39,026 bases of DNA from Bacteroidales bacterium (lineage in GTDB: Bacteria; Bacteroidota; Bacteroidia; Bacteroidales; UBA12077), in assembly GCA_022360575.1 (NCBI GenBank), contig JAKSCO010000306.1, positions 1 to 39,026 on the forward strand, given 5' to 3'. Numbering within the stretch: position 1 is the first letter of the stretch; the number at the start of each line of letters is the position of its first letter. Positions 3,047 to 37,983 of the stretch are shown here, piece by piece. A model generated the notes under the pieces. That model made no database searches, was not told the origin of the DNA, and saw nothing but the letters and a program-made list of their open reading frames with translations. The position numbers were made by a program, and so were the translations under genes.

Positions 3047-3706
3047 GTGAGAGAATTCATCGAATATATTAAATACCCAAGATATGTTAGAACTACTAAG
3101 CTTAGTACTGCATATTTTTTTCGTCTTTGGTTTTATTTATTATTAATAGCAATTCCTTTATCGATATGTATTAATATTTTAAAAACATTTATAAATACAC
3201 AAGAGATAGATTCAAACTCATCTACACTTGTAGAGTTTTTGAGCATAGTGATATTGGGTCCTTTAGTTGAAGAATTATTGTTTCGTTTGATTCTCAAACC
3301 TAGACATAAGAATTTATTGATATTATTATTGACACTAATATATTTAGCTGTCATAGCAATTATTAAGCATAACTTATTCTCATTATTGTTTGTTATTTTT
3401 GCAGTATTTATTCTGATTATCTTGAGTAAAAGAAATAATATAAGGCTTTTGCAACGATTCTTTATTAGTAAATTCTCTTACATATATTATATATCTGCAT
3501 TTTTTTTTGGTGTAGTTCATGTATTTAATTACAGTGATCGATCATTTATCTTTTTCATTACCTCTCCGATTATTATTATTCCGATGATGATATTAGGAGC
3601 TTTTTATGGGTTTGTAAGGATAAAATATGGAATTATATATTCTATTCTTCTTCATTCTTTTTACAATTTTATCCCAGCTATTATTATGTTATTAGATATT
3701 ATATAA
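3047..3706 (+). CDS. CPBP (CAAX/Abi) family intramembrane metalloprotease
   Basis: This is a 219-residue polytopic membrane protein with all the CPBP motifs: EELLFR (E75, E76, R80), FFFGVVH (H158) and HSFYN (H203, N207), the predicted metal and catalytic residues. In Gram-positive bacteriocin loci, CPBP proteins often act as immunity proteins, and in other settings they process prenylated proteins or peptides. Its position directly after a GG-leader peptide makes self-protection or peptide handling plausible. The start is GTG: a stop lies four codons upstream and no in-frame ATG occurs before the first membrane segment. The family is certain, the role is inferred. Confidence 0.85.
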   Translation: MREFIEYIKYPRYVRTTKLSTAYFFRLWFYLLLIAIPLSICINILKTFINTQEIDSNSSTLVEFLSIVILGPLVEELLFRLILKPRHKNLLILLLTLIYLAVIAIIKHNLFSLLFVIFAVFILIILSKRNNIRLLQRFFISKFSYIYYISAFFFGVVHVFNYSDRSFIFFITSPIIIIPMMILGAFYGFVRIKYGIIYSILLHSFYNFIPAIIMLLDII

Positions 3707-3773
3707 TATTCTCGATTCCTTTTTAAAATCTTATTATGAATTAAAAATGCAAAATAATAAAACTTAACACAGT

Positions 3774-4658
3774 ATGCGATTAATATCAACACTTTTAATC
3801 CTGATAATTTTTAGAGTATTTTCTTTGGCTCAGGATTTTGCGATAGAAGGAATAGTAATAAACTCAGAAAATGGTACTCCTGTAAGTTATGCCTCGGTAT
3901 GTTTACAAAACGAAACAAAAGGTATTTCGACTAACGAAAAAGGAGCGTTTAGATTAATATTACAGACCAAAGATTTAAAAAAGCAAATCGTTATTTCGGC
4001 TATAGGCTATTACGATACAGTATTTTCAATATCAACATTAAATAAAAATGCAGTAAATTTAAAATTAAAACCAAGATCATATCAAATTCCTGAAGCGGTA
4101 GTGGTTGTTTCTCATAAAATAAAGACGATTATTATAGATAAATTACGAAAAAGTATTTTTAAACAAGTTATGATGGCAGGACCATCGAATCCTAAAATTG
4201 TAGCAAAAAATTTTAAATACATCGAAAAGTATGACGGCTTTTATTTAAATGAGATAAGTATTTTCTTTGATCGAGAGTTTGATTATTCGATTAAACCAAA
4301 GTTTATTTTAAGAGTATTTGCTAAGGATACAATAAATAATACTCCCGGAAAAGATTTAATAAGTAAAGCTTTGATTACTCTAGATAAAAGCAAACCTCAG
4401 ATGCATTATAAATATACTTATAAACTAGAGAATCCGATTAAGTTTCCTAAAACAGGACTATTTGTCGGAATCGAATGGATTGCCATTAAAGAGAATAAGT
4501 ATAACGAAAAAAGAAAGGCGTATTCTCCTTTCTTAGCAGGAAAATATCGCAAAAGGATGGATAATAATCTGTGGGAGTTTTATGGGGGAAGCTGGAAGTT
4601 AAAATCTCCTGTTAAAGACAATTCAGAACCATATATCGAATTGCGGTTAATAAAATAA
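3774..4658 (+). CDS. Secreted carboxypeptidase-regulatory-like domain protein
   Basis: This protein has 294 residues. A signal peptide (about residues 1-19, ending LAQ) precedes a CarboxypepD_reg-like beta-sandwich domain at about 22-105 (IEGIVINSENGTPVSYASVCLQ, ISTNEKGAFRL). The remaining 190 residues are not recognised but resemble the region that follows this domain in the DUF5686-type proteins (compare the gene at 34155-36506), without the beta-barrel. It is probably exported to the periplasm or cell surface. It is a single gene ending at a strong terminator, and its function is unknown. Confidence 0.7.
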   Translation: MRLISTLLILIIFRVFSLAQDFAIEGIVINSENGTPVSYASVCLQNETKGISTNEKGAFRLILQTKDLKKQIVISAIGYYDTVFSISTLNKNAVNLKLKPRSYQIPEAVVVVSHKIKTIIIDKLRKSIFKQVMMAGPSNPKIVAKNFKYIEKYDGFYLNEISIFFDREFDYSIKPKFILRVFAKDTINNTPGKDLISKALITLDKSKPQMHYKYTYKLENPIKFPKTGLFVGIEWIAIKENKYNEKRKAYSPFLAGKYRKRMDNNLWEFYGGSWKLKSPVKDNSEPYIELRLIK

Positions 4659-4675
4659 GTTTTTGCATATGTAAT

Positions 4676-4706
4676 AAAAGATCAGTTTGTGCTGATCTTT
4701 TTTTAT
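4676..4706 (+). terminator. Intrinsic terminator
   Basis: AAAAGATCAG (4676-4685) pairs perfectly with CTGATCTTTT (4692-4701) around a 6-nt loop, followed by T residues. It ends the carboxypeptidase-regulatory-like gene. Confidence 0.85.
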
Positions 4707-4939
4707 TAAAAAAATTGCAATTTATATTTTATCTATTTTGTTTGTTAATTTAAGTTATTGGTATGCCAGAAACTTTAGTTTGCGGGGTGTGGCTCGATTT
4801 TTAAAATCAAAAAACGAAAAGTAAAAATCAGATTTGTTTCTAAACATCCGAAAATAAAGGGCTTTAAAACAGTTTTGTTTTTTGCAAATCCATATTTTAA
4901 TGTTATATTTAAACTGTAAATAAATTAATCAATTAAAAT

Positions 4940-5587
4940 ATGAAACTTAAGAAAAATTACAGAACCTATACTGTAAATGCTCTGGGAGCAGTGGTTCAAC
5001 GTGTAAAAGAAATTGTAAAAGCAATAGATAACCCGGTTATTGTTGCTTTTTTGTCATCTATCGAAAAATATGTTAAAAGCTTAAACCGAGGCTTTATTTC
5101 TGCTGCCGAAATTGCCGGATCTGACGACTGTCGAGACGCTTGCTTTAGAGGCTTAACACACTTAGCCAATCTTTATACCGAATCGCCTAACAAAGAACAG
5201 GCAGAAGTGGCGCTACAGGTAAGTACTATTATCGATAAGCAAGGAGGTTTCGATATTCCTCAGATGAGTTATAAGGAAGAAACTTCGGCTTTGAAACGTG
5301 TTATTGCCGGAATTGAAGAATTGCCAGCCGAGAAGATTGATCTTATCTATTTAAACGATTGGTTGCCTTTGTTGAAAAAACAAAATGATGAATTTGAGAA
5401 ACAAATAGCCGAGTATATCGATAATCAGGTTGATTACGATGAAACCTTAAGTGCTACTGAAGCTCGAAGAGATTTAGAATTAAAATTGAAAGCTGTAGTA
5501 GAATATATCGAGGCTGTATTGGTGGTATCGCCAACCGACGAAATTAAAAGAATACATAAGGAATTATTAGAGGTATTTAATCGGTAG
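4940..5587 (+). CDS. DUF6261-like protein
   Basis: This is a 215-residue, largely helical soluble protein with no signal peptide. The layout fits DUF6261 proteins of Bacteroidota as I remember them: an N-terminal LKKNYRTYTVNALG segment, a central DDCRDACFRGL motif (compare D-x-x-R-D-x-x-F-R-G-L), a Y-K-E-E-T block, LNDWLPLLKKQNDEFE, and a terminal helix IEAVL...PTDEIKRIHKELL. The biochemical function is unknown. It has its own terminator, then a 41-bp tandem array. A fragment of a related gene lies at 37747-37983, also next to a terminator and a tandem array. The gene call is firm, the family name moderately so. Confidence 0.75.
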   Translation: MKLKKNYRTYTVNALGAVVQRVKEIVKAIDNPVIVAFLSSIEKYVKSLNRGFISAAEIAGSDDCRDACFRGLTHLANLYTESPNKEQAEVALQVSTIIDKQGGFDIPQMSYKEETSALKRVIAGIEELPAEKIDLIYLNDWLPLLKKQNDEFEKQIAEYIDNQVDYDETLSATEARRDLELKLKAVVEYIEAVLVVSPTDEIKRIHKELLEVFNR

Positions 5588-5615
5588 CGAAGTTTGATTA
5601 AATCTTTTATTCTTA

Positions 5616-5642
5616 GGGAGGTCTTAGGATCTCCCTTTTTTA
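5616..5642 (+). terminator. Terminator of the DUF6261-like gene
   Basis: GGGAGGTC (5616-5623) pairs with GATCTCCC (5628-5635, one G-U pair) around a 4-nt loop and is followed by a run of T. Confidence 0.85.
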
Positions 5643-5704
5643 GTAGCGCATTTTTAATGATTTTCGGAATAACATATTAATACTAAGCTTTCGCTAATTA
5701 TCAG

Positions 5705-5964
5705 TCTGCGATTTTGGGCTTAATACACTATTGAGTTTTGCATAATCTGGGATTTTGGGCTTAATACACTATTGAGTTTTGCGTAATCTGGGATTTTGGA
5801 CTTAATACACTATTGAGTTTTGCGTAATCTGCGATTTTGGGTTTAATACACAATTGAGTTTTGCATAATCTGGGATTTTGGGCTTAATACACTATTGAGT
5901 TTTGCATAATCTGAGATTTTGGGCTTAACTCACAATTGAGTTTTGCGTAATCTGCGATTTTGGA
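5705..5964 (+). repeat. 41-bp tandem repeat array, six copies plus a partial (array 1)
   Basis: Units start at 5705, 5746, 5787, 5828, 5869 and 5910, exactly 41 bp apart, with a 13-14 bp partial at 5951. Each unit runs TCTG(G/C)GATTTTGGGC, then TTAATACACTATTGAG, then TTTTGC(A/G)TAA. Copies differ at a few positions. CTTAATA-CAC-TATTGAG can form a small hairpin with one G-U pair. There are no unique spacers, so it is not a CRISPR. It fills the space between the DUF6261-like gene's terminator and the next gene's terminator. Confidence 0.95.
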
Positions 5965-13548: not shown

Positions 13549-13890
13549 CGAATCTTTTTGACTTCTCGCAAGTGTGCAAGTACTCAAACAGAATCTTTTT
13601 TGCTTCTCGCAAGTGTGCAAATGCCCAAACAGAATCTTTTTTGCTTCTCGCAAATGTGCAAATGCCCAAACAGAATCTTTTTTGCTTCTCGCAAGTGTGC
13701 AAGTGCCCAAACAGAATCTTTTTGACTTCTCGCAAGTGTGCAAATGCCCAAACAGAATCTTTTTTGGTTTCTCGCAAGAGTGCAAGTACTCAAACAGAAT
13801 CTTTTTTGCTTCTCGCAAATGTGCAAGTCCTCAAACAGAATCTTTTTGGCTTCTCGCAAGTGTGCAAGTGCCCAAACAGAATCTTGTAAA
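13549..13890. repeat. 41-bp tandem repeat array, eight copies (array 2)
   Basis: The anchor TCTCGCAA recurs at 13564, 13605, 13646, 13687, 13728, 13770, 13811 and 13852: spacing is 41 bp except one 42-bp step caused by an inserted base. Units run TCTCGCAAGTGTGCAA, then GTGCCCAAACAGAATC, then a T-run and GCT. Two variants alternate at (GTGCCC/GTACTC). Overlapping open frames on both strands result from the repeat and are not genes. There are no unique spacers, so it is not a CRISPR. Confidence 0.95.
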
Positions 13891-37522: not shown

Positions 37523-37666
37523 TACAAAACTGTATTGAGTCAACATTTTTTAATTTTTTTATAATGCAGTATTGCATGATGTTTACATTCTCGAATGTTT
37601 TTACAATGCAGTGTTACATAGGCTTTACATTTTAAAATGTTAACACTATGCAGCATTGCGACAACC
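37523..37666. repeat. 42-bp tandem repeat with internal palindromes (array 3)
   Basis: TGCAG starts at 37565, 37607 and 37649, exactly 42 bp apart. Each full copy carries a palindrome: ACATTCTCGAATGT at 37585-37598 and ACATTTTAAAATGT at 37627-37640. A decayed copy in the same phase has ACATTTTTTAATTT at 37543. About 3.4 copies in all. It follows, on the minus strand, the DUF6261-like fragment and its terminator. Confidence 0.8.
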
Positions 37667-37683: not shown

Positions 37684-37724
37684 GCAATAAAAAACAAGTT
37701 TGGTATAAATGATCCAAACTTGTT
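37684..37724 (-). terminator. Terminator of the DUF6261-like fragment
   Basis: AACAAGTTTGG (37693-37703) pairs perfectly with CCAAACTTGTT (37714-37724). On the minus strand the stem is followed by TTTTATTG. It lies 23 bp after the fragment's stop. Confidence 0.8.
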
Positions 37725-37746: not shown

Positions 37747-37983
37747 TTATCGATTTAATATTTCAGATATGTTCGTATAACAAGTTTTTAGTTCAGGGGT
37801 AGGCTCTACATCTAACATTACTTCGATATACTTAATAAGTATACCCAGATTATTTTCCAAAGCGTGTCGTGTTTTTGATGCACTTTCTATACGATTTCGC
37901 TTTTCTTTGTCGCTGATGTATTTATTTAAACTTACCTCAAAGCTATTGTTTTGTCTCTTTTTATTTTTATCATTGCCGATAGT
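37747..37983 (-). pseudogene. C-terminal fragment of a DUF6261-like gene
   Basis: An open frame of 78 codons without a usable start (in-frame TAA at 37984-37986) reads KKRQNNSFEVSLNKYISD, then ASKTRHALENNLGILIKYIEVML, then EPTPELKTCYTNISEILNR-stop. This matches the end of the DUF6261-like protein at 4940-5587 (KKQNDEFEKQIAEYIDN, VVEYIEAVL, SPTDEIKRIHKELLEVFNR) over its whole length. The N-terminal two thirds are absent from the 150 bp upstream. Confidence 0.75.

Follow-up and report, generated by a model that had tools for sequence, protein, structure and literature searches.

Several described bacterial systems pair short repeats with a neighbouring gene. The F-plasmid centromere sopC (parS_F) consists of twelve 43-bp repeats with ten 16-bp inverted repeats (PMC6238139) and adjoins the gene for its reader, SopB (ParB_F), a plasmid-borne member of the ParB family that acts with a ParA partner. 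In type III toxin-antitoxin systems (ToxIN, CptIN, TenpIN), a short tandem array of ~3-6 repeats lies directly upstream of a single gene; a promoter precedes the array, a terminator separates it from the toxin gene, the RNA folds into a pseudoknot and the toxin is an endoribonuclease (PMC8860590). REP and BIME elements are palindromic intergenic repeats, some of which have a cognate RAYT gene beside them while orphans occur elsewhere (PMC2817692); RAYTs belong to the HUH tyrosine transposases, and the sequence of REPs is conserved within a genome. Loci of the DUF6261 family (PF19775) in Bacteroidales share features with each of these systems. A literature search on DUF6261 returned a passing mention alone and no link to arrays.

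Two such loci and a third array lie in the window, by which we mean the whole 39,026-nucleotide stretch of DNA analysed here. Their features are as follows.

4880..4911, plus strand: putative Bacteroidetes-type promoter of the DUF6261 gene (TTTTGC ... TATATTTA; by-eye match to TTTG-N19-TAnnTTTG)
4940..5587, plus strand: DUF6261 (PF19775) gene, 215 aa, predicted all-helical (Pfam; AlphaFold model)
5615..5645, plus strand: intrinsic-terminator-like stem-loop and T run, 3' of the DUF6261 gene (sequence GGGAG...CTCCCTTTTTT)
5705..5963, no strand assigned: 41-bp array of 6.3 copies beyond the terminator (TRF score 427, 92% matches)
13550..13885, no strand assigned: orphan 41-bp array of 8.2 copies with no adjoining DUF6261 gene (TRF score 537)
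37543..37661, no strand assigned: 42-bp array with six 14-bp dyads of the form 5+4+5 (TRF 42 x 2.4 copies at 37543-37641; dyad comb)
about 37691..37724, minus strand: strong terminator-like inverted repeat and T run after the relic gene (sequence AACAAGTTTGG...CCAAACTTGTTTTTT)
37747..37975, minus strand: DUF6261 relic, 5'-truncated, with the C-terminal ~73 aa left (BLASTP, reading frame)

The open reading frame at 4940-5587 matches Pfam DUF6261 with an E value of 1.8e-20 and 73.8 bits, above the curated cut-off of 27, and gene, terminator and 41-bp array follow one another in the order and at the positions given by the original prediction, as judged by Pfam, TRF and the sequence itself. Successive units of the 5705-5963 array bear the dyads CTTAATAcacTATTGAG and CATAATCtggGATTTTG, and a relative of this array, 88% identical, is found at C243 in the same genome (G000). 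The prediction had also described the locus near 37.5-38 kb as a mirror of the first. Its order of gene fragment, terminator and 42-bp array is indeed the same, but the gene is a decayed relic reduced to its last ~73 aa, 36% identical to the 4940-5587 product over 70 aa (BLASTP E 2e-13, single comparison). The relic's array displays the array design best: arms ACATT/AATGT alternate with ATGCA/TGCAT around four free central bases at a step of exactly 21 bp, and the comb of six dyads has 26 of 30 arm pairs matched, compared to a maximum of 21 of 30 in 2000 shuffles and 2000 column-permuted controls.

The linkage between gene and array extends well beyond the window. PF19775 is present in 45 of 392 genomes of the order, frequently in multiple copies, and in the 3.6-Mb draft to which the window belongs, 11 of 12 DUF6261 genes have a 40-42 bp array in their fetched flanks. 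Across many Bacteroidales genomes, TRF detects an array of period 39-44 within 420 bp of 85 of 119 distinct DUF6261 genes, in a sample of loci biased toward the strongest PF19775 matches, and a scan for the best self-match lag in the 600 bp upstream returns 40-43 bp for 91 of these 119 genes versus 1 of 300 other upstream regions from the same locus stretches. In 60 stretches of ~10 kb, 43 arrays lie no more than 400 bp from DUF6261 and 3 lie elsewhere; 42 of the 60 DUF6261 genes are array-bearing, compared to 5 of 441 other ORFs. The association first suspected from two loci is therefore real, and it survives the comparison named at the outset as able to refute it, namely a search for array-less DUF6261 genes and for arrays equally common by unrelated genes. 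The order found in the window, which the original prediction took as the rule, is a recurring minority: among the 85 TRF-positive genes the array is upstream in 76, downstream in 7 and on both sides in 2. Genes scored as array-less include some with masked bases and some with a more distant array. At L080 in genome G197, ~1.4 kb of other sequence (3303-4866), insertion-sequence-like by eye, parts the array from the gene, and in the near-identical ortholog L099 of genome G267 the array adjoins the gene.

Individual loci depart from the common layout in other ways. At L155 (2983-4581), two DUF6261 genes in tandem have a single upstream array region in common, and L047 carries two extra 43-bp arrays 3' of its gene, with the perfect palindrome CCCCAGCCTTCAGGCTGGGG, in addition to an upstream array. 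A cobalamin riboswitch lies near the DUF6261 locus L045 (982-1186, minus strand). In the window's genome, repeats with periods of 21 bp and 105-126 bp at L028 (3953-4146) and L016 (958-1334) possibly encode coiled-coil repeats.

The arrays have a constant geometry. Their period is 41 or 42 bp in 81 of 86 distinct arrays, which, together with dyads at half that spacing, fits the earlier suggestion that each copy spans about four turns of DNA. Dyad density is 17 per kb in arrays versus 5.8 in column-permuted arrays (~3-fold), and the commonest offset between dyads besides the full unit is the half unit, 20.5 or 21 bp. The unit sequences themselves are unrelated between loci, even inside one genome. 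In an array of Parabacteroides goldsteinii, TCAGA-N4-TCTGA recurs about every 41 bp between unrelated spacers that have T-tracts about midway between the dyads, and other degenerate arrays likewise hold their dyads in a 41-bp register while the remainder drifts. That dyads stay in register despite unrelated spacers argues that they are sites rather than mere copies. Two observations weigh against the module proposed below: averaged over the AT-rich genome that contains the window, the signal of the dyads is weak, and compensatory changes within arrays are only weakly enriched (27 of 69 versus 71 of 275). These arrays also do not behave as CRISPR-type arrays, since either the whole unit repeats or just short dyads are kept, and PADLOC, run on 28 family members, gave no consistent defence family.

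The protein encoded beside the arrays offers few clues from homology. The AlphaFold model of the window's protein is an all-helical bundle (pLDDT 86.8), and that of another family member (pLDDT 92) contains no strands. Neither sequence nor structure searches of the PDB yielded a convincing relative; the top structural ranks are generic helical bundles such as the TorS sensor and LemA, which for bundles means little, and no known DNA-binding fold was recognised in these searches. PADLOC, PHROGs and NCBIfam gave single stray matches. A wide alignment has a mean column identity of 27% and no invariant column, and a core subset conserves a few polar residues (D71, R74, T122, N156, F159 and R182). 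Most DUF6261 proteins are acidic (median pI 5.9). No relatives were found in the viral contigs searched or, with a single query protein, in plasmids or phages.

Based on these data, we propose that DUF6261 and its neighbouring array form one two-part module, in which phased dyad sites are recognised by the adjacent DUF6261 protein, a reading to which we give slightly less than an even chance. The array would be a row of dyad-symmetric DNA sites placed 2 or 4 helical turns apart (20.5-21 or 41-42 bp), a spacing at which all sites face the same way. The adjacent protein, probably acting as a dimer or larger oligomer, would recognise its array as DNA and form a regular nucleoprotein assembly on it, for instance for autoregulation or for organising local DNA. 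Arrays of a single genome carry unlike dyads, so that no general host factor can read every one of them by sequence. With a host reader unfit for this task, and no companion gene family seen with the DUF6261-array pair, we infer that the adjacent DUF6261 protein is the likeliest reader. We keep our confidence in this role, too, just under the midpoint, because the protein is acidic and shows no known DNA-binding fold. Such an arrangement would resemble sopC and SopB, given the nearly equal repeat period (40-43 bp, with dyads) and, if DUF6261 is the reader, repeats that lie next to the gene for their own reader. The DUF6261 loci differ from sopC in being chromosomal, in having many diverged copies per genome and two dyads per unit, and in a sequence that is not conserved. 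Pfam scans of DUF6261 and of neighbouring genes in the window show no ParB or ParA domain, which argues against membership of ParABS.

The alternative that fares best makes the array a cis-regulatory or structural element that tunes the DUF6261 promoter through bending, supercoiling or repeat-number control. DUF6261 would then not bind it; its reader would be a host factor, or it would have no specific reader at all. The location of the arrays speaks for this possibility, as most are found 45-310 bp before the start codon, directly upstream of a promoter-like box, as do the T-tracts midway between the P. goldsteinii dyads and the acidity of DUF6261. We nevertheless consider it unlikely. A protein tree scatters downstream arrays among upstream ones, such that the array has switched sides several times, and some downstream arrays sit behind the gene's terminator; the window gene and L002, both with downstream arrays, are sister to L078 and L100, with upstream arrays, with good support. 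Linkage that is kept while the side changes suits a cognate cis-linked site and not a fixed promoter element. In addition, a single host reader would not follow dyads that vary between loci of one genome, and in most genomes the arrays are nearly confined to the DUF6261 family.

Position and hairpin potential also bring to mind an RNA module, in which the array would be transcribed into a chain of hairpins bound by DUF6261, as in type III toxin-antitoxin systems or another ribonucleoprotein. Like the arrays of those systems, DUF6261 arrays adjoin a gene; they have 3-9 copies. Their gene strand is A-rich (p 1e-4) and ACGA-biased, a hint of strandedness that counts against reading at the DNA level, and the sense strand folds better in 7 of 9 downstream arrays, although this is not significant. 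Overall there is no strand preference: locally, the two strands fold equally well (p 0.38) and far better than permuted controls (p 1e-11), and G-T and A-C mismatches in dyads are equally frequent (226:236). The transcriptional layout differs from that of type III systems as well, because a terminator stands between array and gene in 3 of 77 loci, leaving 74 without one, and after the gene in 33 of 77; the closest loci have in common a promoter-like box that lies 35-60 bp upstream of the start codon, 3' of the array, and no cluster of promoters feeding into the arrays from upstream was seen. Equal folding and mismatches on the two strands, the placement of terminators and a promoter that follows the array favour a DNA-level role. 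The period locked to 41-42 bp points the same way, as does the fact that neither a loop nor a strand-specific core is conserved, and an Rfam search of the arrays gave no match. ToxN has a beta-containing endoribonuclease fold, and the all-helical DUF6261 is not of this type. We therefore dropped the RNA model of the array on the strand and terminator tests and regard an RNA-based system of any kind as improbable.

Arrays without a gene raise the possibility of selfish repeats, in which DUF6261 would aid array amplification or spread, as RAYTs do for REP elements, leaving orphans. The array at 13550-13885, overlooked in the original prediction, is flanked by genes for a ferredoxin-type protein and a U32 peptidase and is 85% identical to the array of another DUF6261 gene of the same genome (L009, on C143) and 90% identical to the C204 array; orphan arrays of this genome, the one on C243 included, are sequence relatives of DUF6261-linked ones. 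In G197, 18 arrays were found in 400 kb sampled, 4 of them at DUF6261 genes and ~14 orphans (L168-L187) of period 41-42 away from any such gene. These orphans, together with the patchy, multi-copy distribution of the family, are what a selfish element might leave. However, other DUF6261-bearing genomes lack orphans in 200 kb: in evenly spaced genome samples of 180-200 kb each, arrays of period 39-44 were absent from G396 and G404, which bear DUF6261, as well as from G373, with one partial gene, and from the DUF6261-free relative G016. Arrays that lack a DUF6261 neighbour are a feature of some genomes. DUF6261 shows neither a transposase signature nor a catalytic motif; Pfam assigns the window gene to DUF6261 alone, and no His or Tyr is invariant in the alignments, both of which set it apart from RAYTs, as do arrays that vary from locus to locus. 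Nothing in our analysis supports the earlier ideas that the protein copies the array or is marked by it, and we give a selfish origin little credence, on a par with an RNA module. Orphans may instead be remnants, since the 37.7-kb relic illustrates gene decay beside an array, although tblastn found no convincing DUF6261 relics beside the orphan arrays of the window's genome; if not left behind by lost genes, orphans would be copies that act in trans. Dyads are not enriched in the G197 orphans, unlike in the DUF6261-linked arrays of that genome, which weighs against a module. Finally, many 42-bp arrays away from DUF6261 in G197 might suggest chance, or a tandem-repeat habit general to these genomes, but 91 of 119 versus 1 of 300, and the absence of arrays from random stretches in most genomes, make this hardly conceivable.

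For a module of DUF6261 protein and array, the evolutionary record is mixed. The close paralogs L002/L003, L004/L005 and L006/L007 have array sequence in common, which speaks for a locus-specific reader, and beyond such pairs array similarity does not follow protein similarity, an observation against a module. In the orthologs L081 and L101, whose proteins are 82% identical, one half-unit is kept and the other half is, by eye, a different palindrome. Because arrays diverge even between close orthologs, recognition would need to change quickly or depend on shape. The DUF6261 proteins of L082 and L098, at the same site in G197 and G267, are strongly diverged, with terminal branches of 0.45 each in the protein tree, although their flanking DNA is 77-90% identical, which reflects either unusually fast evolution or replacement. 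Comparison of G112 and G267 showed that gene content differs around the DUF6261 gene at one site and revealed no clean empty site.

Collectively, these data suggest that gut and environmental Bacteroidales carry a two-part module of DNA and protein that has not been described before. It is possible, if rather less than evenly balanced, that a protein with its own phased dyad array constitutes an unrecognised widespread class, in which diverged paralogs each read a private, fast-evolving array. For DUF6261, a family with no assigned function, a DNA partner beside nearly every member is a strong clue. Given that the geometry remains constant (41-42 bp, half-unit dyads) as the letters change, these loci offer a rare natural experiment in the co-evolution of protein-DNA recognition or of array-based scaffolds. 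With as many as dozens of diverged copies on a chromosome, the question arises whether they serve segregation, regulation or local chromosome structure, or take part in conflict between elements and, if the module holds true, the private array of each paralog would be akin to a private centromere or operator satellite.
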